A stretch of DNA of 64,000 nucleotides from Bacteroidia bacterium. GTDB lineage: Bacteria > Bacteroidota > Bacteroidia > B-17B0 > Aurantibacillaceae. The stretch is from assembly GCA_018000995.1 (NCBI GenBank), contig JAGNIU010000004.1:62001-126000 (forward strand), read 5' to 3'. The stretch's first letter is position 1. Every line of letters begins with the position of its first letter. Below, piece by piece: positions 16,125 through 35,221 of the stretch. The translations under genes and the position numbers were made by a program. The notes beneath the pieces are model-generated. The model ran no database searches. It had not been told where the DNA came from and worked only from the letters and a program-made list of their open reading frames with translations.

Positions 16125-19100
16125 CTACCTATAAAGCCCTAAAGATCCGTTTTTCTTAACCGGTTCTTTAGTGGAATCGAATCCGGTTGCTATAACAAAG
16201 TAGAAATAAGTACCATCAGTTGCTTTCTCACCATTACTTGTAATACCATCCCAAGCAGCTTTAGCGCCTGTGAAATCATACATTAACTGGCCCCAACGGT
16301 TAAATACCTGCAATTGGATTTCCTTCACACCTGTAGATTTAATTGTGAATACATCATTCACATTGTCATCATTTGGTGTAAATACGTTTGGTATTTCAAT
16401 GCTAAATCCATCTTCAATAGTAATAAAGGCATAAGCTGTATCAGTACATAAACCACTTGATGCAATCATCATTACAGTATAAGAACCTGCAACACTATAA
16501 GTATTAGAAGGAGATGTTGTTGATGAACCGTTTCCATCACCAAACGTCCAAGTAAATACAGTTGCACTTGGCGAACTTAAGTTTGTGAAGTTTACAACTT
16601 GTGGAGCGAAACCCGTTGTTACGTCTGGTGTGAACGATGCAGTTGGAACACCATTAATAAGAGTAACTGTACTTGTTGATGTACAACCCGTTGTTGGATT
16701 TGTAACGGTTAAAATATAAGTACCCGGTTGATCAACAACTGGTGTAGATGTATTGGAACCTGAAACAATACTTGGGCCAGTCCATGAAAAAGTAACACCA
16801 GGATCAGGAGAACCACCATTTAAAGTTGCAGTTGAAGCACCACAAGGTATAACTGAGTTAGCTACAGAAGTTGCTGTTGGTACGGTTGTATTATTGTCAA
16901 CTGTATACGTAACCGAAGTAGTACAACTTGTTGCAGGATCTGTAATAGTTACTGTATAAACTCCAGCTGTACTTACCAAAATAGTAGGTGTTGTTGCTGA
17001 TGTATTCCAATTATAAGAAACGTTTGTTGGTGTTGCGTTAGCTGTTAAAACATTTGTACTGTTTGTTGGAGAACATCCTAATCCAACTGATGAAGTTGAA
17101 CTAACATTTAATAAAGGCGGGATAGTTGTTCCAACCACTATTACAGTTAATGAATTTGAAGTGCAACCTGTAACAGTATTTGTAACAATAACACTATAAG
17201 TACCGTTCTGATTAACTGCAACACTACTTCCAGTTGTGCTTCCAACAATACCAGGACCACTCCATACAAAAGTGATATCGGTTGTTGGTGTATAAACCGG
17301 AGAAATAATTGCGGTAGGATTTGAACAACTTAAAGGACTTGCAGTAGCAGTACCCGCTACAAAAGTTGGCGAGTTAGTTGCACTTAATACAGTAACGATA
17401 GCATTTGATTGACAACCGTTAGTCGCGGTAATTACACCTGTGTAAGTACCGGCAGTTGTAAATGTTACAACGCTTCCTGTTGCAGAACCAGAGATACCAG
17501 AAGCCGGAGTCCAAGAATAAGAACCAATACCAACTGTAGAAGTAATATTTACACTAACCGTTGGATTTGCAGTTAAACAAGTAATACTTGGACTTGAATT
17601 ACTTAAAACAAATGTAGGCGCTAAGGTGTTAGGTGATACTGCTGCAATTGCAGCCGCAGCCGAACAACCGTTAGTACCAGTTACAACAACACTGTAATTA
17701 CCAGGACCATTAATGCCGGCTGTTGCAGAAGTAGCGCCGCTAATAATAGCTCCGGTAGCAGGTGCAATCCAAGAATAAGTTGAGGCTCCAACCGCAGTTG
17801 CGGTTAAAGCAGTAGTTGGTGTAGCACATGATAAAGTAAATGATGCAGGGTTAATAGAAACACCGGTTGGAACATTAGTACTTGAAGTAACACTCAAGGT
17901 TGCAGTTCCAACACAACCATTTGTGGTATTAGTAACAGTTACATTATAAGTTCCACCTAAACTTGATGTTGCACTTGATAATGTATTTGTTCCAACAATT
18001 CCGGGACCAGACCAATTATAAGTATAAGTACCTGCTCCTACAGTAGCTGTCATGTTAACAGTAGTTGTATTACAAGTTATAGTACTAGATGCTGCAGTTG
18101 TAGGCGTAACAGCTGCGTTATCATTGGTTACACTATTAGTGATAACCGAAACGCAACCATTTAAAAGATTTGTTAATGTTAAAGTATAAACACCGCCCAT
18201 ATTTACGTTGATTGTAGGTGTGCTGCTTCCTGAAACTATTCCTGGACCAGACCATGTGTATGTTACAGGAGAAGCTGTAGTTGTTGCTACAACTTGTGCT
18301 GAGGTATTGATACATGTGATAGTGCCTGTATTAGCTAAAGTTGCAGTTGGGAAATTTGAGTTGGAAACAACAGTAAATACTGCTGCTGCACTCGAACAAC
18401 CATTCGCCGGATTCGTTACAGTCATTGAATATTGACCAGGAGAACATGCAGAAGCCGTATAAGAAGTTGCGCCTGCACAAACACCACCTGTCCAAACTAC
18501 AGTACATGAGCTTGGACTTGCGCTGCCAATTAAATTTACCGAAGGTGTTGCACAAGTAATAGAAACTGAACCACTACCCAAAGCATTTGGCGGTGTTGTA
18601 TTTGTTCCTACAACAGCAACAGCAGAACTAGTACAGCTATTTGCTGTGTTTGTAACAACTAAAGTATAATTTCCGGAAATAACAACATTTACAGTTTGTG
18701 TATTTGCAGGGCCTACGATTCCGGTTCCCAACCAAGAGTATAAAACACCTGAACTTGGGTTACCTGTAATATTAACTGAGGAAGTAGAACATGTTAAGGA
18801 TTGAGATGCAATTGCTGTTTGAGTTGGCGCTGTTGTATTTGTATTTGCTACAATCACAGCTGTCGGTGCTGAACAACCGTTAGTGCCAGTAACAATAACC
18901 GAATAAGTTCCTCCACCTGAACCGGTAGCGCTTGATGAAGTGCCACCAGAAGTGATGGAAGAGCCAGCCGGAGCAGTCCATGAATAAGTTAATCCCGTTG
19001 GAGTTACTCCTAAGTTAATTGCAGTAGAAGCACACGTTACTGTACCTGAAGTATTAGCAGAAATTCCTGTTGGAGCAACTGTATTAAATCCTACTGCTGC

Positions 19101-21251
19101 AGTAGCTTGAGCAGTACAACCATTAACTGAACTTTGATAAACTACTGTGTATGTACCAGCACCAGAACCAGTAGTGTTTTGATTATTTACACCACCGGTA
19201 ATTGAACCTCCTCCCGGAGCGGTCCATGTATAAGTACCACCACCTGTAGGAGAGCTATTTAAACTAACAGTACTTGTTGAACAAGTTACTGAGCCTGTTG
19301 CTGAAGCACCTACACCTGTAGGAGTTGTTGTATTAATTAATGCAGCTACAGTTGCAATGTTAGTACAACCATTTACTGCATCAGTAACTCTTACAGTATA
19401 AGTTCCTGCACCAGAACCTGTAGTATTTTGACTATTAACACCACCTGTTATTGAACTTCCACCCGGAGCTGTCCAAGTATAAGTAACACCTGAAGATGGT
19501 GTTGAGGTTAAAGTTATAGCAGTGTTATTACAAGTAATAGAACCAGATGTGCCTGCAGTTGGCGACGGGTTTACTGTATTTACTAAAGCTGCAACAGTAG
19601 CTTGCGCTGTACAACCATTAACTGCACTTTGTACACGAATTGTATATGTTCCAGCCCCTGAACCTGTAGTATTTTGATTATTGACACCTCCTGTAATTGA
19701 ACCCCCTCCTGGAGCAGTCCATGTATAAGTAACACCTGTTAAAGTGGTTGTTAAATTAATTGATGTATTGTTACAAGTTATAGAACCACTAGTTAAAGCA
19801 TTTAATCCTGCAGGTGCAACCGTATTTACATTGGCTGCAATTGTTGTATTTGTTGAACATCCATTCGCAGGATTTACAACTCGCACTGTATAAGTGCCTG
19901 GACCAGTCGCAGTAGTTGATTGAGAGTTTACACCTCCTGTTATTGAACTTCCACCCGGTGCAGTCCAAGTATAAGTCATACCAGCCGGTAAAGAACCTAA
20001 GCTAATTGCATTATTGGTACAAGTAATAGAACCGGTTGTAGAAACTGTTGGACTTGGAGCTACAGTATTGAAACCAACAGCAACCGTACTGGTTAATGAT
20101 GAACAAACACCTGAATTAACTGTTAAAGAATAAACTCCAGCAGTACCAACAGTAGGTGTTGCAGTTGTTCCGCCTCCTACTATACCTGGACCGCTCCAAC
20201 TATAAGTTCCGCCACCGGAACCGGCGAGAACTGTTGTAATATTGACACAAGTTAAAGATTGCGTGGATCCTGCATTTGCCACAGGAAGAGCGTTAACAGT
20301 TATTGTATTTGTAGTTGCATTACCACAAGTTGGAGTTATACCTACAGTGTAAGTAACAGGATATGTACCTGCACCAACTATTGAAGGACAAAAAGAAGTA
20401 CTTGAAACTCCAAGTGGTGCTGTAAAAGTTCCTCCTGCTGTTCCTGTAATTTGCGGAGGTAAATTTACACAAGGTCCGTTTGCACACATTGCAGTTGGAG
20501 TTGTCCAAGAAGAATTATAAGGATTTGTAATTGATATGGTTCTGGTTTGAACAATTGAACAACCATTTTGACTATTGAAAGAATAAGTAATTGTATAAAC
20601 ACCTTGAGCCATCTGATAGGTATCCAAATACATATCACCCGTATTTGCATTATAAGAAGCTGTTGGAGCTACTGCGGGAGAAACTGTATAGCCAGCTAAT
20701 CCGATTGCTGAGTTGGCAGGGATTGTAACAGTTTGACAACCTCCGGCTGTTCCGTTATTCCAAACACCACTTGCTAAAGGAGTACTATTATAACAACTGG
20801 CAACTGTATAGTTCATATTTCCTGCAATGTTTGTATTACATAAATTGTAACCATGAGATTGCGCAGGATCCATAAAAAACAAAGAAAATGTATATGTACT
20901 TGAGCTTGGTACAAAAGTATAACACGGTACAGGGAATGAATTACACAAACTAATAATCGGATTGTTTGTCCCTTGCCCAATTGCAATTGAGTTATTCGTT
21001 GCTGCATTTGCATTAGTTAAACCAACAATAATTCGGATACAAGGACTCGTACCTTGGTTACCCACAGCAAATTGGGTTGGACTAATATTAATTAAGTTTG
21101 CATAAGTACAAGAAATTACTGCTGACATGGCAGCACCTGTATTTGCATCGTAAACACCTAAACTTGGTGTTAAACAAGTCATTTGTGCGTTACCATTCCT
21201 AACAGAAAGTAATAAAGCAAAAAATAATGCGATTTTGTATATGTTTTTCAT
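16125..21251 (-). CDS. Giant Ig-repeat surface adhesin 2 with gliding-motility (T9SS type B) C-terminal domain
   Basis: 1708 residues. Signal peptide at the N-terminus (K-I-A-L-F-F-A-L-L-L-S-V-R-N-G-N-A-Q), a roughly 320-residue region unlike that of adhesin 1, then 15 Ig-like modules, a PKD-like domain (F-A-P-Q-V-V-N-F-T-N, F-T-W-T-F-G-D-G-N) and the same C-terminal domain (N-V-F-T-P-N-D-D-N-V-N-D-V-F, F-N-R-W-G-Q). Its last eight modules align one to one with those of adhesin 1, including the unusual module with C-T-V-V-W-T-G-G-V-C-A-G. It begins 8 bases after a small secreted-protein gene, with which it forms an operon. Cell-surface adhesion or gliding is inferred from the C-terminal domain. 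Confidence 0.92.
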   Translation of the reverse strand: MKNIYKIALFFALLLSVRNGNAQMTCLTPSLGVYDANTGAAMSAVISCTYANLINISPTQFAVGNQGTSPCIRIIVGLTNANAATNNSIAIGQGTNNPIISLCNSFPVPCYTFVPSSSTYTFSLFFMDPAQSHGYNLCNTNIAGNMNYTVASCYNSTPLASGVWNNGTAGGCQTVTIPANSAIGLAGYTVSPAVAPTASYNANTGDMYLDTYQMAQGVYTITYSFNSQNGCSIVQTRTISITNPYNSSWTTPTAMCANGPCVNLPPQITGTAGGTFTAPLGVSSTSFCPSIVGAGTYPVTYTVGITPTCGNATTNTITVNALPVANAGSTQSLTCVNITTVLAGSGGGTYSWSGPGIVGGGTTATPTVGTAGVYSLTVNSGVCSSLTSTVAVGFNTVAPSPTVSTTGSITCTNNAISLGSLPAGMTYTWTAPGGSSITGGVNSQSTTATGPGTYTVRVVNPANGCSTNTTIAANVNTVAPAGLNALTSGSITCNNTSINLTTTLTGVTYTWTAPGGGSITGGVNNQNTTGSGAGTYTIRVQSAVNGCTAQATVAALVNTVNPSPTAGTSGSITCNNTAITLTSTPSSGVTYTWTAPGGSSITGGVNSQNTTGSGAGTYTVRVTDAVNGCTNIATVAALINTTTPTGVGASATGSVTCSTSTVSLNSSPTGGGTYTWTAPGGGSITGGVNNQNTTGSGAGTYTVVYQSSVNGCTAQATAAVGFNTVAPTGISANTSGTVTCASTAINLGVTPTGLTYSWTAPAGSSITSGGTSSSATGSGGGTYSVIVTGTNGCSAPTAVIVANTNTTAPTQTAIASQSLTCSTSSVNITGNPSSGVLYSWLGTGIVGPANTQTVNVVISGNYTLVVTNTANSCTSSAVAVVGTNTTPPNALGSGSVSITCATPSVNLIGSASPSSCTVVWTGGVCAGATSYTASACSPGQYSMTVTNPANGCSSAAAVFTVVSNSNFPTATLANTGTITCINTSAQVVATTTASPVTYTWSGPGIVSGSSTPTINVNMGGVYTLTLTNLLNGCVSVITNSVTNDNAAVTPTTAASSTITCNTTTVNMTATVGAGTYTYNWSGPGIVGTNTLSSATSSLGGTYNVTVTNTTNGCVGTATLSVTSSTNVPTGVSINPASFTLSCATPTTALTATAVGASTYSWIAPATGAIISGATSATAGINGPGNYSVVVTGTNGCSAAAAIAAVSPNTLAPTFVLSNSSPSITCLTANPTVSVNITSTVGIGSYSWTPASGISGSATGSVVTFTTAGTYTGVITATNGCQSNAIVTVLSATNSPTFVAGTATASPLSCSNPTAIISPVYTPTTDITFVWSGPGIVGSTTGSSVAVNQNGTYSVIVTNTVTGCTSNSLTVIVVGTTIPPLLNVSSTSSVGLGCSPTNSTNVLTANATPTNVSYNWNTSATTPTILVSTAGVYTVTITDPATSCTTSVTYTVDNNTTVPTATSVANSVIPCGASTATLNGGSPDPGVTFSWTGPSIVSGSNTSTPVVDQPGTYILTVTNPTTGCTSTSTVTLINGVPTASFTPDVTTGFAPQVVNFTNLSSPSATVFTWTFGDGNGSSTTSPSNTYSVAGSYTVMMIASSGLCTDTAYAFITIEDGFSIEIPNVFTPNDDNVNDVFTIKSTGVKEIQLQVFNRWGQLMYDFTGAKAAWDGITSNGEKATDGTYFYFVIATGFDSTKEPVKKNGSLGLYR
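19160..19980. repeat. Near-identical Ig-module repeats in adhesin 2
   Basis: Four successive units of about 245 bases, with the shared T-W-T-A-P-G-G-G/S-S-I-T-G-G-V-N-coding stretch starting at about 19168, 19418, 19664 and 19906. They are close at DNA level to the repeats around 13450-14010 in the neighbouring gene, so the two loci could recombine. Confidence 0.72.
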
Positions 21252-21739: not shown

Positions 21740-23656
21740 CTACCAACGGGTTTTATAGTACTTTACCTCAAGATTAGTAACGAAATCCGACACGCTTTGA
21801 TTGGCAGGATTAATTTTGAGAGCTTCCTTGTAATACCGTATGCTGTTTAACGTGTCTTTTGTTTCAAAATAGGTCTTTCCTAATAACACATTAAATAACT
21901 CAGAACTCGGATTCTCTTTCAACTTAACTTTAAAAAAGTTTATCCCAATATTTGGGTTTGTTCTAGTATACAAATCCTGTAATACCTCATATGGTACCGT
22001 AAAGTCTTTTTTCTTGTCGTGTTTAATCGCTAACAACAAATACTTTTCGGCAGTTAACACATCACCTAACCTAAAATAAGCAATTCCCAAATTACAAATC
22101 ACTTCTTTTTTAGTTGTATCACGCTTATAAACCAATTTTAAATAAGGCAATGCTTCAGCTGGATTCCGCTCAAAAGTTAAATACATAAACGATAAATTAT
22201 TATAGCATCCACCACAACTTGAATCGGTTTGAATAGCTTTTTTCAACAACAATTCCGCTTCTCTTATTTTTCTTACTTTATCTTCATCTTTTATCAATTG
22301 CGCCTTCTTCGGATCACTAATATTAATTATCAACTGACTCGTTGTTAAAAGCGAAAGTTTAACGGATTCGGGATACTTTTTTACGTCGGTTTCAAACAGA
22401 ACTGTTTTACTTTTCCATTCTTTGTTTCTTACCACAATTGTATAAGCAAACAAAACAAAAATCAAAGCAGGAATTGCCTTTTGGTATGGTTTAAGATCCG
22501 AATATGTAATTGATTTTTTTGGAATGGCTTTGTAATAAAACAAAAAATAAACAGCAATTAAACTAAAACCGATTGAAGCAAAAAATGCAAACCGATCCGC
22601 TACTATACCAGGTGCCGGTATTAATAAATTCAAATACATGGATAATGATAAACCAAAAAACGCAATACCATACCAAAGTAAATCAGCCTTTTTAAAACGT
22701 GTAAAAAACACATAAGCCATAGCACCAAAACCACCTAATCCCAACAAAGCAAACACCGAAGTAAATGAATATACAGCAATTGTATTGTACCCGTAATACG
22801 AAGCCATTTTACTTGGAAAAATCAACATCTTAATATAAAACCCTAGTGAATTTAATGCGGCCGATATTTTTAATGACAGTGTTTTTTCAAAAAACAATGG
22901 ACTTTCAAAATAATTAAATGTACGTACCTGAGAGACTGATTTATCGATTAAGAAATGCTTCGTGACTTTATAGGAATAATATGAAACAAAAATTAATACA
23001 ACTGTTAGTACAATAAATTTTACATTTAGTTTGCCTAGTTTATATAACACCAAAGGCACAATTATAGCAAATGGAATAACATCAAACTTGCTCAAAAAAG
23101 CCAAACCAAAACACAAAAACGCAAACAACATAAAAAACCATTTTTTGCTTTCGGCAAACTTTGTAATATTTATAAATCCAAGCGCAGAAAATATAAAACA
23201 TAATAAAATATCCCTGTTCTTTAAACTAGCCACTACTTCAGCGTGTATTGGTAATACTGCAAAAATTACTACTCCAAAAAATAAAATAAAAGGCGGATAA
23301 TCTTTAAATAACAAATTAAAAAGCCGCAACAATAATAGTAGACAAGCCGCATACAATAAAATATTTACCAAGTGGCTAACAACTAAATTCTCTCCAAAAA
23401 ATTGATGCTGTAAAGCAAAAGAAACCTTTACAATTGGCCGGTATTCGTAATTATTCCCGCTTTCATCATTTACATGATATGTTCTGAAAATGCGGGGAAT
23501 TGATTTTATTCCTTTAGAAGTAATGTTTTCCGGGCCCGTTACAAATTCATCATCTAATGCATAACCATTAGTTAATGTGTTTCCGTATAACAGAAAAGCA
23601 ATTAAAACAAGAATTAATCCGTAGTTATTTTTATTGAATATTTTTTTGAGTGCCAT
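21740..23656 (-). CDS. Multi-spanning GT-C type glycosyltransferase-like protein with C-terminal TPR repeats
   Basis: 638 residues. About ten hydrophobic segments fill residues 12-410; the first extracytoplasmic loop has Y-A-L-D-D-E-F, the paired acidic motif expected of GT-C/PMT-type transferases that use a polyprenyl-phosphate sugar. Residues about 450-630 are TPR repeats (L-L-K-K-A-I-Q-T-D-S-S-C-G-G-C-Y-N-N-L, A-L-P-Y-L-K-L-V-Y-K, I-R-Y-Y-K-E-A-L-K-I-N-P). The overall plan resembles TMTC-type O-mannosyltransferases. Substrate and acceptor are unknown. It lies 29 bases downstream of the acyl-CoA dehydrogenase on the same strand. Confidence 0.8.
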   Translation of the reverse strand: MALKKIFNKNNYGLILVLIAFLLYGNTLTNGYALDDEFVTGPENITSKGIKSIPRIFRTYHVNDESGNNYEYRPIVKVSFALQHQFFGENLVVSHLVNILLYAACLLLLLRLFNLLFKDYPPFILFFGVVIFAVLPIHAEVVASLKNRDILLCFIFSALGFINITKFAESKKWFFMLFAFLCFGLAFLSKFDVIPFAIIVPLVLYKLGKLNVKFIVLTVVLIFVSYYSYKVTKHFLIDKSVSQVRTFNYFESPLFFEKTLSLKISAALNSLGFYIKMLIFPSKMASYYGYNTIAVYSFTSVFALLGLGGFGAMAYVFFTRFKKADLLWYGIAFFGLSLSMYLNLLIPAPGIVADRFAFFASIGFSLIAVYFLFYYKAIPKKSITYSDLKPYQKAIPALIFVLFAYTIVVRNKEWKSKTVLFETDVKKYPESVKLSLLTTSQLIINISDPKKAQLIKDEDKVRKIREAELLLKKAIQTDSSCGGCYNNLSFMYLTFERNPAEALPYLKLVYKRDTTKKEVICNLGIAYFRLGDVLTAEKYLLLAIKHDKKKDFTVPYEVLQDLYTRTNPNIGINFFKVKLKENPSSELFNVLLGKTYFETKDTLNSIRYYKEALKINPANQSVSDFVTNLEVKYYKTRW

Positions 23657-24965: not shown

Positions 24966-25952
24966 ATGGGCCTTTTTATCGATAAAATTCGCATTCACCT
25001 TCCGGAAGAGGTTTTATCGAACACTCAACTTGCCAAGGAATTTAACATTACTGAAGCTGAAATTTTAAAGAGAACCGGAATAGAAAAACGTTATTTGGCG
25101 GCTAAAAACGAAACTGCTTCTGATTTGGCTTTTGTTGCTGCAAAAAAAATACTCGCTTCTGATCCGGATTTAAGTAGTAAAATTGATTTCCTTATTTTCT
25201 GTTCCGATTGCTTCGATTATATTGCCCCTGCTACTTCTTGCATTTTACAAGACCGATTAAAATTACCACAAACTACCGCTTGCATCGATTTACCGTATGG
25301 CTGCTCTGGTTTTGTTTATGGTTTAGGAATTGCCAACGGACTTTTACATAGCGGCATGGCTAAAACAATTTTATTCTTAACCTGTGATTCATCTACCAAA
25401 ACTTTAAATCCTAAGAACTTTGAGCAACGCAGTTTATTTAGCGATGGTGCTGCAGCTATTTTGTTGAGTAAAAATGATTCAACTCCTGCCAATAACTTTG
25501 TGTTTGGAACGGATGGTAGTGGCGCGCATGATTTATATATTGAAGGAAGCGCTTTTAGAACACCCTTAGATGAAAATTTTAAAAAAGAAAGTTGTGTTCC
25601 TTACGGCGAAATGGTTATGAATGGCGCTAATATTTTTTCGTTCGCACTTAAAATAGTGCCGACATTAATAAACGACGCTCTAAAAAAATGCAATTTAACT
25701 TTTGAAGATATAGATTTGTTTATTTTTCATCAGGCTAATGGTTTTATTTTGGAAACTTTGCGCCGCAAAATGAACATTCCAAAAGAAAAATTTTATACTA
25801 ACATAAAGGATTACGGAAATACTGTGGCCTCCACAATTCCTATAGCACTTTACACCGCCGAGCAGGAAAAAGTTCTTAAAAAAGGTATGAAAGTATTGAT
25901 AGCCGGCTTCGGCGTTGGAAATAGTTGGGCGGCAACTGTAATAAATTACTAA
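24966..25952 (+). CDS. 3-oxoacyl-ACP synthase III-like condensing enzyme, copy 1
   Basis: 328 residues with full KASIII (FabH-type) catalytic triad: Cys113 in Y-G-C-S-G-F-V-Y-G, His255 in F-H-Q-A-N, Asn285 in Y-G-N-T-V-A-S-T, and the C-terminal G-F-G-V-G glycine loop. It condenses an acyl-CoA primer with malonyl-ACP or, in specialised relatives, moves an acyl group. First gene of a six-gene operon with overlapping reading frames. Clearly different in sequence from copy 2, with which it shares the operon, so it is not the housekeeping fabH duplicated recently. An AT-rich 134-base region separates it from the divergent dehydrogenase. Confidence 0.92.
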   Translation: MGLFIDKIRIHLPEEVLSNTQLAKEFNITEAEILKRTGIEKRYLAAKNETASDLAFVAAKKILASDPDLSSKIDFLIFCSDCFDYIAPATSCILQDRLKLPQTTACIDLPYGCSGFVYGLGIANGLLHSGMAKTILFLTCDSSTKTLNPKNFEQRSLFSDGAAAILLSKNDSTPANNFVFGTDGSGAHDLYIEGSAFRTPLDENFKKESCVPYGEMVMNGANIFSFALKIVPTLINDALKKCNLTFEDIDLFIFHQANGFILETLRRKMNIPKEKFYTNIKDYGNTVASTIPIALYTAEQEKVLKKGMKVLIAGFGVGNSWAATVINY

Positions 25953-25960
25953 ATTTGAAT

Positions 25961-26197
25961 ATGCTTTTAGATGAATTTGTAAATAAACTGGAATCTGAAT
26001 TTGAAGATATGCCTAAAGGCACTTTAAAAGCTGATACTGATTACCGGAGTATAAAAGGTTGGAGCAGCATGCATGCCCTAATCATTATCGCTTTTATTGA
26101 TATTACGTTCAACATCACTTTAAATGGTACCGATTTAAAATCTACAAAAACCGTTAGTGATTTGTATAATTTGGTTCAACAAAAAAAATCAGCTTGA
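25961..26197 (+). CDS. Acyl carrier protein between two KASIII genes
   Basis: 78 residues from the ATG at 25961; the frame is open further upstream, inside the KASIII gene, but that extension has no ACP similarity. The phosphopantetheine site is G-W-S-S-M-H-A-L with Ser36 as the likely attachment residue; the Asp normally before it (D-S-L) is replaced by Ser. Helix I is acidic (E-S-E-F-E-D-M). It lies 8 bases after KASIII copy 1 and overlaps copy 2 by four bases, so it should carry the acyl chain for these two enzymes. Confidence 0.88.
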   Translation: MLLDEFVNKLESEFEDMPKGTLKADTDYRSIKGWSSMHALIIIAFIDITFNITLNGTDLKSTKTVSDLYNLVQQKKSA

Positions 26198-27249
26198 GTA
26201 CTTTTAAAACATCTCACGTAGCTATTAAAGGCATTGTATCTTGTGTGCCTAAAGAAGTAAAAAGCACTTTTGATTATTCGTATTTAAAACCTGAAGAACA
26301 AGAGTTGTTCTACAAAACTGTTGGTATTAAAGAACGCCGTGTGGCCAATGATAAAATTACCTGTAGCGATTTATGTCAGCAAGCCGCTGAATATTTATTC
26401 AACAACAACATTACCAAACCTGAGAATATTGATTTAATAGTTTTCGTTTCACAATCGCCCGACTATTTCTTACCATCCACTGCGGTCATTCTTCAAGATA
26501 AATTAAAATTAAAAAAAACAACATTAGCTTTTGATGTGACTTTAGGTTGCAGCGGTTATGTTTACGGATTAAGCATTGTTTCTAATTTTTTGCAAAGCGG
26601 ACAATTTAAACAAGCCTTATTGTTGTGTGGTGATAAATCTACCATTTCAACTTACGAAGAAGATAAAAGCGCCTACCCTTTATTTGGCGATGCTGGCACT
26701 GCTACTTTATTGGAATATGATTCTACAGCGCAAGACATGAATTTTGCTTTAAATAGCGATGGCAGTGGTAAAAACGCTATTATTATCGAACATGGTCATT
26801 CACGTCATCCTTACTCTGCTGAATCGGATATCATTACTGAATTAGAACCAGGCGTTAAGCGTGCCAAAAAACATTTAGCATTAAACGGGCAAGATATTTT
26901 TACGTTTGCTTTAAAAGAAGTAACTCCTAATGTTAATGAAACACTTCAATCAGCGAATAAAACTATTGCTGATATTGATTATTTCGTGATGCATCAAGCT
27001 AACAAACTAATTAACGAAACTGTCCGCAAAAAATTAGGAATTGATAAAGAAAAGTACCCTTATTCAATAGAACTTTTCGGAAATACGAGCTCAGCATCAA
27101 TACCTTTAACTATGTGTTACGCTTTAGAGTCTAAATTATTAAAAGAAAGTTTAAATTTGTTATTGTGCGGATTTGGCGTTGGATTATCATGGGGAAGTGT
27201 AATTTTAAGAACCAACCAACTTAAATGCGCCAAATTAATTGAGTTATGA
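26194..27249 (+). CDS. 3-oxoacyl-ACP synthase III-like condensing enzyme, copy 2
   Basis: 351 residues, starting at TTG in a TTGA overlap with the ACP stop. The triad is complete: Cys119 in L-G-C-S-G-Y-V-Y-G, His267 in M-H-Q-A-N, Asn297 in F-G-N-T-S-S-A-S. It ends G-F-G-V-G-L-S-W-G and has about 12 extra C-terminal residues running into the next gene (ATGA overlap). With two active-looking KASIII enzymes on one ACP, successive condensations or primer/extender division of labour are possible. Confidence 0.91.
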   Translation: MSTFKTSHVAIKGIVSCVPKEVKSTFDYSYLKPEEQELFYKTVGIKERRVANDKITCSDLCQQAAEYLFNNNITKPENIDLIVFVSQSPDYFLPSTAVILQDKLKLKKTTLAFDVTLGCSGYVYGLSIVSNFLQSGQFKQALLLCGDKSTISTYEEDKSAYPLFGDAGTATLLEYDSTAQDMNFALNSDGSGKNAIIIEHGHSRHPYSAESDIITELEPGVKRAKKHLALNGQDIFTFALKEVTPNVNETLQSANKTIADIDYFVMHQANKLINETVRKKLGIDKEKYPYSIELFGNTSSASIPLTMCYALESKLLKESLNLLLCGFGVGLSWGSVILRTNQLKCAKLIEL

Positions 27250-27989
27250 TTAGTTTAAAGGATAAAAACATTTTAATTACAGGCGCCTCTTCAGGTATTG
27301 GAGAAGCAACTGCTATTTTATGTGATTCGTTAGGTGCTAATGTAACTTTAACAGGAAGAAATGAATCTGCCTTAACAGAAACATCAAAGAAATTAAAAAA
27401 CAAAACCTCAATTCTTATTGCTGATTTAACGAGTCAAGAACAATTAACTGCATTGGTAACAAAATGCGGTAACCTTGATGGTTTAGTGAATTGCGCAGGA
27501 ATTGTAAAGCCATTACCGGTTAAATATATCCGTCAGAAAAACATTACTGAAATGTTTGATGCTAATTTTTCATCAGCCGTTTTATTGTGTAGCGAATTAA
27601 GTAGCGCCAAAAAATTAAACGAAAAAGCTTCTGTTATTTTTATTTCATCTATTTCTTCTCTTCATCCCTATATCGGCGGTTCATTATACAGCGCTTCAAA
27701 AGCAGCTTTAGAAGCGTTTTGTCGTTCGTTTGCCATTGAGCATGCTAATAAAAAAATAAGGGCGAATGTTATAGCACCCGCTTTAGTAAAGACAAAAATT
27801 TTTACTGAGACTGAGTTAGCAACTTCGGAGGAGGAAATGAAAAATTACGAAGCACAATATCCATTGGGTTTCGGTGAACCCGAAGATGTTGCCAATGCAA
27901 TTGCATTTTTATTATCACCGGCCTCTAAATGGATTACCGGAACTACTTTAAAAATGGATGGCGGACTATTATTAAGCAGCAAAAAATGA
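27246..27989 (+). CDS. SDR family oxidoreductase (FabG-like 3-oxoacyl-ACP reductase)
   Basis: 247 residues, classical short-chain dehydrogenase. NAD(P)-binding T-G-A-S-S-G-I-G, N-C-A-G, catalytic Ser in I-S-S-I-S-S, Tyr-x3-Lys in Y-S-A-S-K-A-A-L, and the C-terminal G-F-G-E-P-E-D-V-A-N-A-I-A-F-L-L-S-P ... T-G-T-T-L-K-M-D-G-G block typical of FabG-type enzymes. In this operon it most likely reduces the 3-oxoacyl-ACP product of the KASIII enzymes to a 3-hydroxyacyl-ACP. Both ends overlap neighbouring genes by four bases (ATGA), so it is translationally coupled. Confidence 0.92.
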   Translation: MISLKDKNILITGASSGIGEATAILCDSLGANVTLTGRNESALTETSKKLKNKTSILIADLTSQEQLTALVTKCGNLDGLVNCAGIVKPLPVKYIRQKNITEMFDANFSSAVLLCSELSSAKKLNEKASVIFISSISSLHPYIGGSLYSASKAALEAFCRSFAIEHANKKIRANVIAPALVKTKIFTETELATSEEEMKNYEAQYPLGFGEPEDVANAIAFLLSPASKWITGTTLKMDGGLLLSSKK

Positions 27990-28915
27990 ACATAGATTAT
28001 TCCATCATAATTCCTGCTTATCATGCAGAAACCAGTATCGAAAAGTTATACGATGCTTTAAAAACTTATTTTACTTCAAGTCAAAAAACATTTGAGGTTA
28101 TTTTTGTGGATGATGCTAGCGCCGATTCTACTTGGAAAGTTTTACAACAACTAAAGCAAACTCATAAAAACGTAAAGATTGTCCGCTTTGCTAAAAATTT
28201 CGGTCAGCATGCTGCCACGCTTTGTGGGTTTTCGTTTGCTAAAGGAAAGTTTGTTATTACAATGGATGATGATATGGAAATTCATCCTGATCAGATTTCA
28301 AAATTGATTGAAGAACAACAAAAAGGAGATTATGATGTTGTTTATGGTGAGTATAAAAAATTAAACCAACCCTTTTTCAGAGGACTATTTACTAAGTTCT
28401 ATAAATTCGGTTCTAAATTAGTGGAAGGTAAAAACAAAGGGAAGGGTTCTCCGTTTCGCCTTATTAAAACAGAATTAGCTCATAAACTTTCGGAAACTCA
28501 TCGCCATTTTGTTTTTATTGACGAATTGTTGTTATGGTACACAGCAAAAATTGAATTTATTCAGGTTAATCCAAATCCAAATTACATCCGTAAAGGTGGG
28601 TATTCTTTAGGAAGTTTATTTAAGATTACGAGTAACGTTGTTATGTTTTCATCGGCCTCACCTTTAAAATTGGTAACTAACCTCGGGATTTCTTTAGCTA
28701 CTATAAACTTTGTAATTGGTTCTTTCTATTTATTGAAGAAAACATTATTTAGAACACCTGTTCCTGGCTATACCTCGATAATTGTAAGTTTATTATTCTC
28801 TACAGGTTTAATTGTTTTAAGCATCGGCATTGTTGCACAATACATAAGTAAAATAATGCAGGACGTAAATAAAAAACCTTCCTACCATATTTCAGAAAAA
28901 TTTGCTGACGATTAA
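27986..28915 (+). CDS. Family 2 glycosyltransferase with two C-terminal membrane helices (DPM/GtrB-like)
   Basis: About 309 residues from the ATG at 27986 (ATGA overlap with the SDR). The GT-A domain opens S-I-I-I-P-A-Y-H-A-E-T-S, has V-D-D-A-S-A-D-S-T, N-F-G-Q-H-A-A, and the metal-binding M-D-D-D-M-E. Two hydrophobic segments (L-G-I-S-L-A-T-I-N-F-V-I-G-S and S-L-L-F-S-T-G-L-I-V-L-S-I-G-I) sit near the C-terminus. This is the plan of enzymes that load a sugar on undecaprenyl phosphate at the inner face of the membrane. It may supply the donor for a GT-C enzyme such as the one at 21740. Confidence 0.9.
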   Translation: MNIDYSIIIPAYHAETSIEKLYDALKTYFTSSQKTFEVIFVDDASADSTWKVLQQLKQTHKNVKIVRFAKNFGQHAATLCGFSFAKGKFVITMDDDMEIHPDQISKLIEEQQKGDYDVVYGEYKKLNQPFFRGLFTKFYKFGSKLVEGKNKGKGSPFRLIKTELAHKLSETHRHFVFIDELLLWYTAKIEFIQVNPNPNYIRKGGYSLGSLFKITSNVVMFSSASPLKLVTNLGISLATINFVIGSFYLLKKTLFRTPVPGYTSIIVSLLFSTGLIVLSIGIVAQYISKIMQDVNKKPSYHISEKFADD

Positions 28916-29519
28916 ACAATACGGCGTAACCTTAACCCGAATAACTTCTAACGACATAGAATTACTTCGGTATTGGCGGAATCAGCAATCCGTAAAAATG
29001 TATATGGATTACAGGGAATACATTAGCCCTAACATGCAGCAAAAGTGGTTCGAATCTGTCAATAACAAATTTAATTACTATTTTATTATTGAATTTGAAG
29101 GTAAAAAAGTGGGATTAATCAACGCCAAAAATTTCAGTTACAAAAATGGTTTTGGCGAAGGCGGTATTTTTATTTGGGACGCTGCTTATATAAATTCATT
29201 TGCCGCAGTATTTAGCACACTTGCCTTATTGAATTTTGTATTTCATAAAGTAAAATTGTGCGAAACTTCACATGCTCGTATATTAAAAGATAACGACAGA
29301 GCCATTCACTACAATCAATTAATTGGGTACAAACTTTCTTCAGGACAAGAAAACGAATACAATCAATTATATGTTTTAACGCTTGAAGATTATTTAAAGA
29401 ATGGCGCTAAACTTAACAAAGCTGCAGAAATGCTGAATAATGGTAATGGAGAACTAACTTTTTCAGGAACTGTGAGTGAAAATAATCTTGACGAAATAAA
29501 TAAACTACTTAAGAATTAA
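28902..29519 (+). CDS. GNAT acyltransferase, PseH-like (amino-sugar N-acyltransferase candidate)
   Basis: 205 residues starting at TTG, overlapping the glycosyltransferase by 14 bases. The N-terminus L-T-R-I-T-S-N-D-I-E-L-L-R-Y-W-R-N-Q-Q-S-V followed by I-S-P-N-M-Q-Q-K-W-F-E-S-V resembles the PseH family, which acetylates nucleotide-linked 4-amino sugars. Residues 160-205 form a polar tail beyond the usual GNAT end. As the last gene of the KASIII/ACP operon, it is the natural candidate to move the finished acyl group from ACP to an amino sugar; that role is inference. Its end overlaps the convergent hydroxylase gene by 11 bases. Confidence 0.82.
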   Translation: MLTIKQYGVTLTRITSNDIELLRYWRNQQSVKMYMDYREYISPNMQQKWFESVNNKFNYYFIIEFEGKKVGLINAKNFSYKNGFGEGGIFIWDAAYINSFAAVFSTLALLNFVFHKVKLCETSHARILKDNDRAIHYNQLIGYKLSSGQENEYNQLYVLTLEDYLKNGAKLNKAAEMLNNGNGELTFSGTVSENNLDEINKLLKN

Positions 29520-30195
29520 ACATTCTGAGAGGGAATTCTCCTTTAGCGAAAGCCTCCAACCACTTTTCTTTCGGTACCATCGACAGTAAAAAAGGATCAT
29601 CCATATTCTCAACTTTATATTTCGAAATTTGTTGTCCTGTATAACCCCAAAGTGGATTGGGAATATCAAACATTAAAACGGCGCGGTTCTCATCCGATTT
29701 ATTCCAGGCCTCATGCTCAAACGAATCGTCAAAAATAATTAGTTTACCTTCTTCCCACTCTTTTGTTTCATCACCTACTCTTAATGCACAATTATGTCCG
29801 GGTGGCACAATTAAAGGCAAATGACAACGCAACACCATTTTAGTATACCCTTTGTGAGGTTGAATATGGGTATGCGGTTTTAAAAAAGAATAATCGCAGG
29901 AAATAATTTCAGGAATGGAATAAATAAGTTCGGCTGTTTTCGGACAAAGTGCGGCGTTACCCGGAAATTTCATGTTAAAGAAAATAAAAGAGAAAACTTT
30001 CCATGCTTTTTTATTCTCAGAACTAACATAATCAGGAAACGTTTCGAGCCATTGATTCTCTCTATCCTTATCTAATAATTCAAGCAATTCATTTTTAATT
30101 ACACTAAAATTCTTTGTAAGGACATCCAAAAAGGGAAAATCCTTTGTATCGTAAAAGAATTTTGGATTCTTGTCGGTTATTTCGTGTTTACTCAA
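29509..30195 (-). CDS. Aspartyl/asparaginyl beta-hydroxylase family dioxygenase (LpxO-related fold)
   Basis: 228 residues, Fe(II)/2-oxoglutarate type. Iron and cosubstrate residues are visible in the order I-Q-P-H-K-G, L-R-C-H-L-P-L, F-D-D-S-F-E-H-E-A-W-N and R-A-V-L-M-F-D, the AspH_beta core. The family includes peptide Asp/Asn hydroxylases and LpxO, which hydroxylates lipid A acyl chains. It ends the Dlt-like operon, 8 bases after the adenylation gene, so hydroxylation of the transferred acyl or amino-acyl group is conceivable. No membrane segment is evident, unlike LpxO. Confidence 0.88.
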   Translation of the reverse strand: MSKHEITDKNPKFFYDTKDFPFLDVLTKNFSVIKNELLELLDKDRENQWLETFPDYVSSENKKAWKVFSFIFFNMKFPGNAALCPKTAELIYSIPEIISCDYSFLKPHTHIQPHKGYTKMVLRCHLPLIVPPGHNCALRVGDETKEWEEGKLIIFDDSFEHEAWNKSDENRAVLMFDIPNPLWGYTGQQISKYKVENMDDPFLLSMVPKEKWLEAFAKGEFPLRMFNS

Positions 30196-30203
30196 TTTTC
30201 TAA

Positions 30204-31640
30204 CTAAATAAAATTTTCTTTCAGTTTTTGAATATCTACTTTATGATTCAAGCTCATCGGGAATTTCTCCATTACTATAATACTATCGGGTAACATATAA
30301 GATGGGAGCTTGCTCAGAATGAAAGTTCGTAGTTGAAGCTCGCTAATTTCAGTTGCACTTTCAACAAAAGCAATAATTTCAATTTTCGGATTATCTATTG
30401 CAATCACTTCGCAATTTGAAATACGTCCAAAATCCATCAATGTATTTTTAATTTCACTTAACTCAATTCTAAACCCGTTACGTTTAATCATGCTGTCCCC
30501 TCTTCCAACAAATTCTAAATTTCCATTAGAAAGTTTTTTCACTTTATCACCGGTATTATAAACTGTTGAGACTTTTAATATCTGAACACCATATTCATCG
30601 ATAGTTGCTTTCATTAAGAGTTTTCCCTTATACGTAAGCTCTGATGATTTATTCAACTTAACATGAGTTGTATAACAAGGTTTACCAATTGGCACATTTA
30701 TATCTTTTGCTTTTACCTTTCCAAAATCAATTTTATGATAAGTACAAACATTAGTTTCAGTTGGTCCGTATAAATTATAGAACGCCGCTTTCTTAAAATG
30801 TTTTTTCAGTTCCTTAACTAAATCATAACTCAGTTGCTCACCTGCAATTAAAATTAATTTCACAAACTTAAAATCGTATTTAGTTAGCTGGCCGGTTTGT
30901 AATAACAATTTTAAATAAGAAGGCGTTGTGTACAAAGCTTCTATTTTATTTACTGAAATGTACTTTGAAAATAATCTTGTATTTGAAATGGAGTTTTGTT
31001 TAGGCAAATACAATTGCTTTTTGGCCGACAAAGGAAAAAACAAATCAAAAACCGATAAATCAAAATTTAACGGGGCGACAGAAACAAACCTTGAAATTTT
31101 ATATTTTAAAAACTCTTTATTACACCACTTTAAAAACGCTGTCATACTATCAGAACAATGAACAATTCCTTTCGGGAAACCGGTAGAGCCTGACGTAAAT
31201 AATATGTAAGCCAAATTTTTAGGGTAAACTCTTGCAGGAAGATTCGTTTTAATAAAAGTATAATCTTCATTAATAATATGTTCTTCGTAAGATGTAACTG
31301 TGTTTAAAACCTCACTGGCTTTTGGTAAATATTTGTTTTCGATAATACACCCTTGTAAACCCGAATGTTTTAAAATAAACTGAATTCGCACGGCAGGCCA
31401 TTCCGGATTAATTGGCAAGTATCCATTTTCCGTATTAAGAATTGCGAAAACAAATGAAACAAGTGCAGTATTCTTATCTCCCCAAACTGCAATTGGCTGG
31501 TTAATTATATGCGGACAAATACTATGTAACCAAGATTTAAATCCATCACACCTTACTTGTAATTCAGAATAATTTATGGTTCTGTTATCTTCATCTAACA
31601 GAAATTCAGTATTGCCACCGGCAATAAGACGTTTGGTAAT
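30204..31640 (-). CDS. Adenylation enzyme, DltA-like, with probable ATT start
   Basis: 478 residues if begun at ATT 31640. Core motifs in order: G-Y-L-P-I-N-P-E-W-P-A (A2), L-F-T-S-G-S-T-G-F-P-K-G (A3), N-F-D-L-S-V-F-D-L (A4, as in DltA), Y-N-L-Y-G-P-T-E-T-N (A5), Y-N-T-G-D-K-V (A7), F-V-G-R-G-D-S-M-I-K-R-N-G-F-R-I-E-L (A8) and a terminal N-H-K-V-D with the A10 lysine. The A4 Asp favours an alpha-amino acid substrate. The first ATG/GTG/TTG in frame is TTG 31418, which would cut into A2 and delete A1. The preceding 74 codons are open and encode recognisable N-terminal sequence (T-I-N-Y-S-E-L, I-A-V-W-G-D-K). ATT overlaps the carrier-protein stop as TAATT. It should charge the adjacent carrier protein. 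Confidence 0.82.
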   Translation of the reverse strand: MTKRLIAGGNTEFLLDEDNRTINYSELQVRCDGFKSWLHSICPHIINQPIAVWGDKNTALVSFVFAILNTENGYLPINPEWPAVRIQFILKHSGLQGCIIENKYLPKASEVLNTVTSYEEHIINEDYTFIKTNLPARVYPKNLAYILFTSGSTGFPKGIVHCSDSMTAFLKWCNKEFLKYKISRFVSVAPLNFDLSVFDLFFPLSAKKQLYLPKQNSISNTRLFSKYISVNKIEALYTTPSYLKLLLQTGQLTKYDFKFVKLILIAGEQLSYDLVKELKKHFKKAAFYNLYGPTETNVCTYHKIDFGKVKAKDINVPIGKPCYTTHVKLNKSSELTYKGKLLMKATIDEYGVQILKVSTVYNTGDKVKKLSNGNLEFVGRGDSMIKRNGFRIELSEIKNTLMDFGRISNCEVIAIDNPKIEIIAFVESATEISELQLRTFILSKLPSYMLPDSIIVMEKFPMSLNHKVDIQKLKENFI

Positions 31641-31897
31641 TATTTTGCTAATTTCTGAGATAAAAATTCGGCTGTTATATTAATAGTATCTAAATTATCT
31701 ACACTTACTTCATGTGCTTCCAACTCAACATTCAATTTTTCTTCTAAATGATTTATTAAGCCTAAAACCACAATAGAATCCAACAACCTAGAACTAATCA
31801 AGGCGGTGTCGTTTGTGAAATCAGCAGGCACATCACCTCTAAATAATTTTTCCGTTACATAATCTCTTACTTCTTTAATAATATCATTCTTATTCAT
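31640..31897 (-). CDS. Acyl/aminoacyl carrier protein, DltC-like
   Basis: 85 residues with phosphopantetheine Ser41 in L-L-D-S-I-V-V-L, the standard D-S-I/L context, and helix I-N-H-L-E-E-K-L after it. Compact, acidic, single domain. It overlaps the upstream MBOAT gene by 8 bases (ATGAATAA) and the following adenylation gene by one base, so the three proteins should be made together. Position and partners make it the equivalent of DltC; the acid it carries is unknown. Confidence 0.88.
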   Translation of the reverse strand: MNKNDIIKEVRDYVTEKLFRGDVPADFTNDTALISSRLLDSIVVLGLINHLEEKLNVELEAHEVSVDNLDTINITAEFLSQKLAK

Positions 31898-34310
31898 AAA
31901 CTTTTACATTTAAAGGTTCATTAATTATTTTAAAAACACCGCCGGCAATAAGTATATGTCCTAAAGTATTTGGGTGCGGATCAACATTGCTTACTGTTAT
32001 TTGCTCTTTAGGATAATTGGAGTAAATGTTTCTAAGCGAAAAAGTTTCGAAACCAGCCTTCTTAGCCAATTCCCGTAAATTGTTTATTTTGCTGTTATCT
32101 ATTATCACTTCATTAGTAGTAGGTAAAAATACCCAAACCGGTTTTATACTATTTGCTTTACAAGTTGCAACCATTTTTTTATAAAGGCTATAAAACAAAT
32201 CGTTTATGAATGGTTTAAGTCTGTATTTAATTTCGAGTGCCGACATTTTCTTTTCTACTCCAGCTTTATCAATCATAAAGTTAGTAAAATCATCGTCAAA
32301 AGTAAATCCCTCTTTTATGAGCCTTGTCACATTGTTTGTTAAGCGCTGCTCTTCACCTGTATGGGAGAATAAAATAGCCATATCAGGCTTAAAATGAAGC
32401 GTCTTATGCTCGAGAACGTGAGCATTTTGGATAGCCGAATACATTGGAACTCCAAAATTAAGAAGCTCGTACTTTTTACCGCTATATTTATTTAGCCATT
32501 CTTCAGCAACACTTTCAAAAACTTCATTGTTATTTACACCGGTGCCCATTTCATAAGATGCGCCTAAAATAGCTATACGGTTTACGTGGCCAGCCTTAAC
32601 TAAATCGTATTCCTTATCCCTTAACCCAAATTTATTTGTGCTGATAATGGTTCCATTAAAATCAATAGCTTGAGAAGGCATTAGTTCCTGTCGCAATACA
32701 GTTTGACTTGCAAAACTTATTTTTGAAAGTGGACTCACGCGCATGTTGCCCTCTTTTCCCATTTTCGAATTGCTGTTGGAAGCCATTAAACGGGTATAAT
32801 ATCCTTCTTCATTACTCTCGTGCTGATTAACTGTTAGGTAATCAGGTGTAAATACCATTTGTAAGAAATTATTTTTTTTAGAATTATGTAAAAAATATAA
32901 ACTCAATAACACAATTGGAAAACCAAATTTAAATATGGAAATAATCTTGTTTTGCTTATCAATACTTGTTGTAATAGCCCTTTTAATAACAATTCCAACA
33001 CAAAACATTAACCAATATATCCCTAAAAAATACAATGCTGTAACAGAGAATTTACTTCCTTGCTTCAATATAAAAAGCACCTCACCAACACTTTCGGTAG
33101 TCCACACGAAAAACAAAAAGTTCATTACTACTTGTACAAACAAAACCGATAACGACAATTTCAGAAACGAAATAAATCCCTTTTCAGTCTTTGGTGTTTC
33201 TTTTAAGGATTTTTCAAATCTATAACCACTATAAAACACAAGGAAGCCTAGCAATAACCAATACAAAACATCCGTCATTTTAAATTTAAAATAGCCGGTT
33301 GACCAATATAATTGATAGAAGTGAAAGAAACATGAGGACATGAAGGTGATGACAATAAGAAGAATTCCTTTTCCGGCAAACTTCGATTTCTTTAACTTAA
33401 AGAAAAGAGGGTAATAAATTATTTTAAGAATGAAATCACGCCAAAAACGATTTACATCTTTCCAATAATCACGAAAGCTAGAAGCAAGAGGAAAGAATCC
33501 AAAAGAAGATGGTAAGCTAATATCAAACATGCTCAAAAAACCAATCGAAAAAATAAATACGCCAACCAATTTAAAAAGTATTACACTTTTACTTAATGCA
33601 AAGAGCATAAAGTCAGACAAATTATTGATTGCATAAATAGAAGGGCTGAAATTTTGGTTTACTACCTTATAGATTACAAATAATAGAAGTCCTGTTACAA
33701 ACTGAGTAATGGCTTTATCGTAATTTGTAAAACCTTCTTTTACATTTCGTCCGTTTAAAAAGTGTTTGTAATCCACAATGGGCATTATTGGAAAAAACAA
33801 TTGTTGGAAAGAGAAAAAGTAGGTCCACGAAGCTGCTTTGTTCTTAATGATGTTATTGTACTTAAATTCATAAAGCACAATAATAGATTTAAACATAAGA
33901 ACAGAAGCTAAAAAAGGAATGATGAAATTTATAGTCCCAAACTGAATTCTGTTACTTTGAATTAAATACATCCCAATAAAAACCAAAAGCATAAATAGCA
34001 ATTTATACATCCATTTTAAACCGGAAATTAGAACAGCAGATATAATGGAAAGAAATGCAAATAAGATAATAGCGTTTATAAAATCAAACACATAAAAACT
34101 TATGGTTAAAAATAATAGTGGGAATATAAACGGTTTAAATTTTAAGTCGATTACTGCATTCATGAAGAATAAAGGCAAGACAACTAAAGACAGATTTAAA
34201 ATATCCTGACCTTTATCGAAACTAATGACTTTAGCGAGAAAAAAAACGACCAGGTAAACAATACCATATATAAAAAGCTTTACCGCTTTATTGTTTATAA
34301 ACTGAGTCAT
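31890..34310 (-). CDS. MBOAT membrane acyltransferase fused to a C-terminal SGNH hydrolase-like domain
   Basis: 806 residues. Residues 1-480 hold a dozen or more membrane helices with MBOAT features: Y-W-K-D-V-N-R-F-W-R-D-F-I-L-K-I-I-Y-Y-P-L at 282-301 and the invariant His330 in F-F-H-F-Y-Q-L-Y-W. After a soluble linker, residues 577-806 form an SGNH domain: Ser585 in I-L-G-A-S-Y-E-M-G (block I, with A instead of D before Ser), N-F-G-V-P (block II), D777 and H779 in D-P-H-P-N (block V). This reads as DltB and a DltD-like SGNH protein in one chain. It would accept an acyl group from the carrier protein and pass it to an extracytoplasmic target. Target and acyl group are unknown. Confidence 0.87.
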   Translation of the reverse strand: MTQFINNKAVKLFIYGIVYLVVFFLAKVISFDKGQDILNLSLVVLPLFFMNAVIDLKFKPFIFPLLFLTISFYVFDFINAIILFAFLSIISAVLISGLKWMYKLLFMLLVFIGMYLIQSNRIQFGTINFIIPFLASVLMFKSIIVLYEFKYNNIIKNKAASWTYFFSFQQLFFPIMPIVDYKHFLNGRNVKEGFTNYDKAITQFVTGLLLFVIYKVVNQNFSPSIYAINNLSDFMLFALSKSVILFKLVGVFIFSIGFLSMFDISLPSSFGFFPLASSFRDYWKDVNRFWRDFILKIIYYPLFFKLKKSKFAGKGILLIVITFMSSCFFHFYQLYWSTGYFKFKMTDVLYWLLLGFLVFYSGYRFEKSLKETPKTEKGFISFLKLSLSVLFVQVVMNFLFFVWTTESVGEVLFILKQGSKFSVTALYFLGIYWLMFCVGIVIKRAITTSIDKQNKIISIFKFGFPIVLLSLYFLHNSKKNNFLQMVFTPDYLTVNQHESNEEGYYTRLMASNSNSKMGKEGNMRVSPLSKISFASQTVLRQELMPSQAIDFNGTIISTNKFGLRDKEYDLVKAGHVNRIAILGASYEMGTGVNNNEVFESVAEEWLNKYSGKKYELLNFGVPMYSAIQNAHVLEHKTLHFKPDMAILFSHTGEEQRLTNNVTRLIKEGFTFDDDFTNFMIDKAGVEKKMSALEIKYRLKPFINDLFYSLYKKMVATCKANSIKPVWVFLPTTNEVIIDNSKINNLRELAKKAGFETFSLRNIYSNYPKEQITVSNVDPHPNTLGHILIAGGVFKIINEPLNVKVYE

Positions 34311-34381: not shown

Positions 34382-35221
34382 ATGTCAACCGTAAAGAAGC
34401 AATTTCTTTTTGTACACATTCCTAAAACAGCGGGCACATCGTTTGCACTTATTTTAGCCAAACGTTTTAAAGGTTTACGTAAACTTCAGTTTTATTCACC
34501 CAAAGAGCGTGAAAGGTATCCAAAAGTTGAGGCTTCAGAAAAAGAGAATTATGATTTGATTTACGGGCACATTCCTTTTATTGGAAATCAGGGTTTAAAA
34601 AGAGGAATTGAATATTTTACATTTTTCAGAACACCCCGCGAGCGCCTGTTATCTCAATACAAACACATAAAAGGCGACGGCAATCACATTATTAAAAGCA
34701 AAGTTAATGTTGATGAATATTCTTTAAAAGACTTTTTAAAACAAGGCATCGTAAAGAACTTTGATAACTTAATGACACGTTATTTGTCAGGGAATATTAG
34801 TAAAGATTATCTAAAAATTAATAAAGAAGATTTAGAATTAGCTATAAAAAACTTTGATGCGAATTTCAATATTTTTGGTCTGACCGAGAAATTTGATGAA
34901 AGTCTTGTTTTATTATCAGATTATATGAATTGGCCTCCGCTTTTGTATGTGCGCGAGAACAAATCTTCCTTTAAAATAAAACCCGAGGAATTTGATGAAG
35001 AAACTGAGCGTTTAATACAAGCTTGTAATCAATTTGATGATGTTTTATTTAAACATGCCAAAACGAAATTTGACAAATTACTAGAATCGAAAAAAGATTT
35101 TGTAGAGAAAGGCGTAAAAGAATTAAGAGAAGGCAGCGAAAAAAACAGACGCTCTATTTTATTCAAAAACAAAATTAATTTACTTTATGCCTACTGCAGA
35201 CAGGTATTAGCCAGAACATGA
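34382..35221 (+). CDS. Sulfotransferase (family 2-like, PAPS-dependent)
   Basis: 279 residues. The N-terminus F-L-F-V-H-I-P-K-T-A-G-T-S-F is the 5'-phosphosulfate-binding loop of carbohydrate sulfotransferases, and Y-F-T-F-F-R-T-P-R-E-R-L-L-S-Q-Y matches the 3'-phosphate-binding R-x-P-x-x-R segment. No signal peptide, so it acts in the cytosol on a sugar or lipid-linked precursor. First of a three-gene coupled unit (ATGA overlap with the next gene), divergent from the MBOAT operon by 71 bases. The acceptor is unknown. No PAPS-synthesis gene is in the window. Confidence 0.87.
   Translation: MSTVKKQFLFVHIPKTAGTSFALILAKRFKGLRKLQFYSPKERERYPKVEASEKENYDLIYGHIPFIGNQGLKRGIEYFTFFRTPRERLLSQYKHIKGDGNHIIKSKVNVDEYSLKDFLKQGIVKNFDNLMTRYLSGNISKDYLKINKEDLELAIKNFDANFNIFGLTEKFDESLVLLSDYMNWPPLLYVRENKSSFKIKPEEFDEETERLIQACNQFDDVLFKHAKTKFDKLLESKKDFVEKGVKELREGSEKNRRSILFKNKINLLYAYCRQVLART

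Follow-up and report, generated by a model that had tools for sequence, protein, structure and literature searches.

A KASIII-ACP-reductase operon of Bacteroidia as a candidate pathway for an acylated, lipid-carried amino sugar, often beside a TMTC-like glycosyltransferase gene

Why would a Bacteroidia bacterium keep two condensing enzymes, a dedicated acyl carrier protein (ACP) and a ketoreductase in one operon with a glycosyltransferase and an acyltransferase? The question is raised by a six-gene operon in a 64,000-nucleotide stretch (the window) of contig JAGNIU010000004.1, assembly GCA_018000995.1. The list of open reading frames (ORFs) and the junction sequences give the order KASIII-ACP-KASIII-SDR-GT2-GNAT at window positions 24966-29519, where KASIII is a β-ketoacyl-ACP synthase III-like enzyme, SDR a short-chain reductase, GT2 a family 2 glycosyltransferase and GNAT an acyltransferase (Table 1). 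We put at about even the chance that this operon supplies a short hydroxyacyl-ACP for the N-acylation of an amino sugar, which undecaprenyl phosphate would carry and a GT-C glycosyltransferase would transfer in the periplasm. An earlier interpretation made from the DNA letters (the sequence-only reading) had proposed a hydroxyacyl line serving an amino sugar of the O-antigen type.

The compact packing described in that reading was confirmed by the ORF list and the junction sequences. An 8-base gap separates the first KASIII gene from the ACP gene, for which the start was taken as the ATG at 25961; the ORF list offers a TTG at 25925 as an alternative. The ACP and second KASIII genes share a TTGA overlap, the second KASIII and SDR genes an ATGA overlap, and the GT2 ATG falls inside a further ATGA overlap at 27986, where the ORF list starts the gene at 27929 instead. 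The GT2 and GNAT genes overlap by 14 bases.

All six genes recur in this order in 29 fetched loci from at least ten family-level groups (ten family codes) of Bacteroidia, and this recurrence indicates that the arrangement is not due to chance. Mean identity among these loci is 39-54% per protein, and a few of them have extra genes inserted. The order KAS1-ACP-KAS2-SDR-GT2-GNAT (KAS1 and KAS2 being the clades of the first and second KASIII) was read directly in 24 loci and in five more once an ACP missed by ORF calling was read in the KAS1-KAS2 gap. GNAT searches matched 78 of 395 genomes sampled from the class (E up to 1e-6) and 3 of 395 genomes sampled across the phylum at the stricter 1e-18, which suggests that many families of the class commonly carry the operon and that it is rare in the phylum-wide sample. 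The GNAT-anchored set yielded 36 fetched stretches, none longer than 19 kb; GT2 is present in 35 of these and KAS2 in 33. L125 and L141 have the GT2 with no KAS locally, and a KAS pair is encoded elsewhere in the same genomes. Distances among the six proteins correlate in all 15 pairs (r 0.41-0.76, Mantel 0 of 2000), a correlation to which shared descent contributes.

The catalytic residues of the acyl core are complete. The Cys-His-Asn triads noted in the sequence-only reading are indeed intact and invariant, as C113/H255/N285 in 31 aligned copies of KASIII-1 and C119/H267/N297 in 43 of KASIII-2. SDR residues Y148 and K152 are kept in 37 of 37 aligned copies. The ACP had no match in the Pfam search; it aligns with its relatives, and a W-x-S motif is invariant in 35 copies. 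Both KASIII proteins exceed the cut-off of 249 for NF006829, a β-ketoacyl-ACP synthase 3 subfamily model (253.2 bits for KASIII-1, 255.5 for KASIII-2), and both fall below the cut-off of 292.1 for the fabH model TIGR00747 (225.9 and 223.1 bits).

Since KASIII, ACP and SDR are all fatty-acid-type families, the genes might simply belong to ordinary fatty-acid synthesis or to a pigment pathway of the resorcinol/flexirubin type. This is highly improbable. The operon KASIII are not the housekeeping enzyme, because the genome's own fabH adjoins plsX on another contig; together with the TIGR00747 scores this led us to reject housekeeping fatty-acid synthesis. Resorcinol and flexirubin synthases were likewise rejected, the DarB and StlD models reaching 44 and 50 bits at best against cut-offs of 550 and 450. 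GT2 and GNAT genes are moreover regular members of the operon.

KAS1 is nearly always accompanied by SDR across the loci. Nested loss of KAS1, KAS2 and SDR, running from acetoacetyl through hydroxybutyryl to dihydroxyhexanoyl, was considered as proof of a reaction order and dropped because O-antigen loci also carry KAS1 and SDR without KAS2. The distribution of KAS1 and KAS2 therefore does not fix which KASIII acts first. Three Bacteroidota metagenome-assembled genome loci, L036-L038, have ACP-KAS2-SDR-GT2 without KAS1, and the neighbors in L037 and L038 resemble radical-SAM and AMP-ligase genes by eye.

The GT2 resembles enzymes of the polyprenyl-phosphate type. Its best NCBIfam matches are PgfS (149 bits, cut-off 500) and ArnC (113 bits, cut-off 529), both below their cut-offs. 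The DDD motif is kept in 40 of 40 aligned copies, and two transmembrane segments were assigned, one by hydropathy and the second by eye. The GNAT had been called PseH-like. It scores 48.5 bits against the PseH model TIGR03585, which has a cut-off of 93.1, so a distant similarity holds and membership in the PseH family does not. No PseB-type dehydratase is among the reported genome matches, where the one strong PF02719 match is a 630-aa protein of the PglF type; a pseudaminic-acid route is therefore unlikely, and pseudaminic-acid acetylation was rejected on this result and the PseH score. Of 42 aligned GNATs, 41 lack the CoA-binding loop [QRK]xxGx[GA] at the alignment column where it belongs, and these are all 41 operon-type copies. 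The sole copy with the loop, from L160, comes from a locus with no KAS module. Loss of the loop would be compatible with ACP as the acyl donor. A GNAT structure predicted from two usable sequences had a pLDDT of 43.7 and was not used.

A loop-less GNAT beside a dedicated ACP would also suit an N-acyl amine lipid or signal, formed by LuxI- or FeeM-like use of acyl-ACP and then glycosylated by the GT2, with neither an undecaprenyl-linked sugar nor a protein involved. Such a product would be in keeping with the OlsC-like hydroxylase and the OlsHI-like ACP encoded next to the operon and with the many sulfotransferases near its relatives. We nonetheless regard it as improbable, as the GNAT is strictly linked to an ArnC-like GT2 and the operon itself to a TMTC-like GT-C gene.

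That GT-C gene would supply the transferase for the lipid-carried sugar that we propose. It lies before the operon in the window, with an acyl-CoA dehydrogenase gene in between. Among 22 relatives, PMT_2 was matched in 11 and TMTC_DUF1736 in 10 (E up to 0.1); the window copy is without a TMTC_DUF1736 match, and a PDB profile search with its GT-C domain gave no match. Alignment of the relatives revealed invariant residues D35-D36, Y72-R73-P74, K190 and R355, which by our reading would correspond to TMTC motifs M1, M2, M4 and M7 of PMC7801869, a study that also notes full-length prokaryotic TMTC homologs. In 16 of 40 loci the operon has a GT-C homolog no more than 1.5 kb away, in each case encoded on the opposite strand; over the whole fetched stretch, 19 of 40 loci have one. 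The 25 genomes counted hold 1-9 copies each, a figure that gives copy number and not a rate, the set having been picked partly for the neighbor.

The proposed pathway would start with the two KASIII extending acetyl with malonyl-derived units on the dedicated ACP. Reduction of the keto groups by the SDR would then yield 3-hydroxybutyryl or 3,5-dihydroxyhexanoyl as the likely products, and our best guess for the window operon is accordingly a C4 or C6 hydroxyacyl group. The GNAT may pass this group to a sugar amine, with the sugar linked to either a nucleotide or a lipid. Loading of the sugar onto undecaprenyl phosphate would fall to the ArnC/PgfS-like GT2. Once flipped, the sugar could be moved in the periplasm by the divergent TMTC-like GT-C to an acceptor at the surface, with type IX-secreted proteins as one possibility. 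Homology argues for the KASIII, SDR and GT2 chemistry, and the acyl chain, the amino-sugar acceptor, ACP as GNAT donor, the order of acylation and GT2 action and the protein target are proposed more tentatively.

Other contigs of the same genome encode one PglF-like dehydratase (C51) and, as a pair, PglC and DegT (C64), so supply of a 4-amino sugar nucleotide is possible. Giant proteins encoded beside the GT-C gene bear type IX secretion system (T9SS) type B signals and are plausible, if speculative, glycosylation targets. The broadest form of the proposal is a new Bacteroidia protein glycosylation, in which a small polyketide-like line modifies an amino sugar carried on a lipid, the TMTC-like GT-C attaches it to giant type IX-secreted proteins, and sulfotransferases and hydroxylases act as variable tailoring enzymes. 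We hold this form to be possible yet doubtful.

Several observations weigh against the pathway as drawn. No sugar-nucleotide gene was found in or near the operon, and 21 of 40 loci are without a GT-C gene in the stretch fetched. Eight GT2/GNAT loci have KAS2 with neither KAS1 nor SDR, and a hydroxyacyl product does not explain them. The GNAT is far under the PseH cut-off, which leaves its substrate assignment putative, and the loss of its loop is no proof of ACP use because the loop of its best PDB match, MJ1062, is also degenerate. A T9SS giant beside the GT-C gene is merely suggestive because such proteins are common in these genomes; two of nine other stretches of the same genome hold one of the same cluster.

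The setting of the acyl core bears on whether the product belongs to an O-antigen. In Flavobacterium psychrophilum, whose O-polysaccharide (O-PS) sugar structure is chemically established, the O-antigen genes include the ketoacyl synthases wfpC and wfpE, the ACP wfpD, the reductase wfpF and the PglD-like acyltransferase wfpG (Cisar et al., PMC6519341), and wfpC-G are predicted to supply the 3,5-dihydroxyhexanoyl group on Qui2NAc4N (PMC6519341). This prediction matches the line of KASIII, ACP and ketoreductase, dedicated to a short hydroxyacyl group, that the sequence-only reading had proposed. The chemistry of that reading is thus supported and likely right, and was largely anticipated in the literature. 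Bacteroidota relatives found with the ACP have the core in polysaccharide loci with PglC, PglD, DegT and PglF homologs, and loci of the O-antigen type pair it with PglD/C/E/F and nucleotide-sugar genes. The window operon and its nearest relatives sit outside O-antigen loci and carry GT2 and GNAT. No pglC/E/F or wzy gene was found at 19000-40000, nor in the rest of the window by eye from the ORF lists, and the window stretch has a GNAT and no PglD match. An O-antigen assignment is not supported for this locus.

In a tree of 107 KASIII sequences, KAS1 and KAS2 form separate, well-supported clades, each with O-antigen-type and GT2/GNAT-type members. The GT2/GNAT-type KAS1 branch (support 96/84) includes L035, a same-genus fragment earlier labeled as O-antigen, and the corresponding KAS2 branch is weakly supported (59/53). 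This partial separation speaks against the competing view, close to the sequence-only reading, that the operon acylates an amino sugar of lipopolysaccharide or another surface polysaccharide, the product going to core/O-antigen or lipid A and the GT-C using a glycolipid as ArnT does. Such a role would fit an acyl core shared with O-antigen loci, an ArnC-like GT2, an adjoining LpxO/OlsC-like hydroxylase and the PglF-like and PglC/DegT genes on other contigs. It fits poorly with a linked GT-C that carries TMTC motifs and TPR repeats and with an operon that has no genes for a polymerase, a flippase or nucleotide sugars next to it, and we judge it unlikely.

Table 1. Operon genes and other features of the window
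Feature	Position	Strand	Basis
KASIII-1 (KAS1 clade), β-ketoacyl-ACP synthase III-like	24966..25952	+	Pfam ACP_syn_III + ACP_syn_III_C
Dedicated ACP, 78 aa	25961..26197 (from its ATG)	+	Alignment with relatives, W-x-S
KASIII-2 (KAS2 clade), β-ketoacyl-ACP synthase III-like, TTG start	26194..27249	+	Pfam KASIII
FabG-like SDR	27246..27989	+	Pfam adh_short_C2 1.5e-49
GT2, ArnC/PgfS (polyprenyl-phosphate) type, hydrophobic C-terminal region	27986..28915	+	Pfam Glycos_transf_2
GNAT-family acyltransferase without CoA pyrophosphate loop	28902..29519	+	Pfam Acetyltransf_3
TMTC-like GT-C glycosyltransferase, C-terminal TPR repeats	21740..23656	-	PMT_2 + TPR
Giant T9SS type B protein, speculative target	16125..21251	-	TIGR04131 53 bits; CHU_C, PKD
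Asp_Arg_Hydrox (OlsC/LpxO-like) hydroxylase, possible tailoring enzyme	29509..30195	-	Pfam 5.6e-47

The surrounding genes are varied. Many of the 40 loci contain AspH-type genes, which fall into two kinds. In the window, the hydroxylase gene belongs to a second ACP line at 29509-34310 (-), which also encodes an amino-acid-type A domain, an ACP resembling the one of OlsHI and a multi-transmembrane protein of 806 aa with weak SGNH similarity; in the same-genus L122 and L123, an acyl-CoA dehydrogenase gene lies inside this line. At 31418-31601 (-), the A domain stays homologous to its L122 relative in frame upstream of the listed TTG start, where no ATG, GTG or TTG is present; this may reflect either an unusual start or a sequence error. 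Relatives often have sulfotransferase genes around the operon (window 34382-36066 (+); L126-L157), and Cupin_8 and Acyl_transf_3 genes lie near it in some. The protein encoded at 36066-37004 (+) has no Pfam or NCBIfam match, and 11 of 40 operon loci encode homologs of it. A run of SIS isomerase, nucleotidyltransferase and HAD genes at 7987-9856 (+) resembles the genes for GDP-heptose synthesis.

No description of the operon or of TMTC-like proteins of Bacteroidota was found in the open-licence literature searched. The operon and its TMTC-like neighbor thus appear to be undescribed there, the acyl core having already been predicted in F. psychrophilum, and rarity in the phylum-wide sample may be the reason. 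The analysis sets a widespread acyl-sugar operon apart from O-antigen loci, the setting in which its core was originally predicted. It also offers bacterial TMTC-like enzymes, for which no described role was found, a specific partner pathway and a donor that can be tested.

Four known systems resemble parts of this locus. PseH is also a GNAT and acylates a 4-amino sugar nucleotide; the operon GNAT differs in its missing CoA loop, an extra C-terminal region and a genome with no PseB among the reported matches. ArnC and PgfS share the GT2 fold, the DDD motif and the hydrophobic C-terminal region, whereas the operon GT2 scores far under both curated cut-offs and is linked to a GNAT. By published description, wfpC-wfpD-wfpE-wfpF place two KASIII, an ACP and a ketoreductase in the same order, and both systems would dedicate an acyl group to an amino sugar, the amino-sugar acceptor being putative here. 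The wfp genes differ in lying inside an O-PS cluster with a PglD-like acyltransferase, pglC/E/F, fnl and wzy, whereas the operon described here has GNAT and GT2, no sugar genes and a TMTC-like neighbor. Finally, the human O-mannosyltransferases TMTC1-4 and their bacterial homologs (PMC7801869) share with the neighboring GT-C the order of a GT-C domain followed by TPR repeats, the DD and YRP motifs and other motif residues; the GT-C here differs in its putative role, in neighboring an acyl-sugar operon and in probably using a donor other than mannose.

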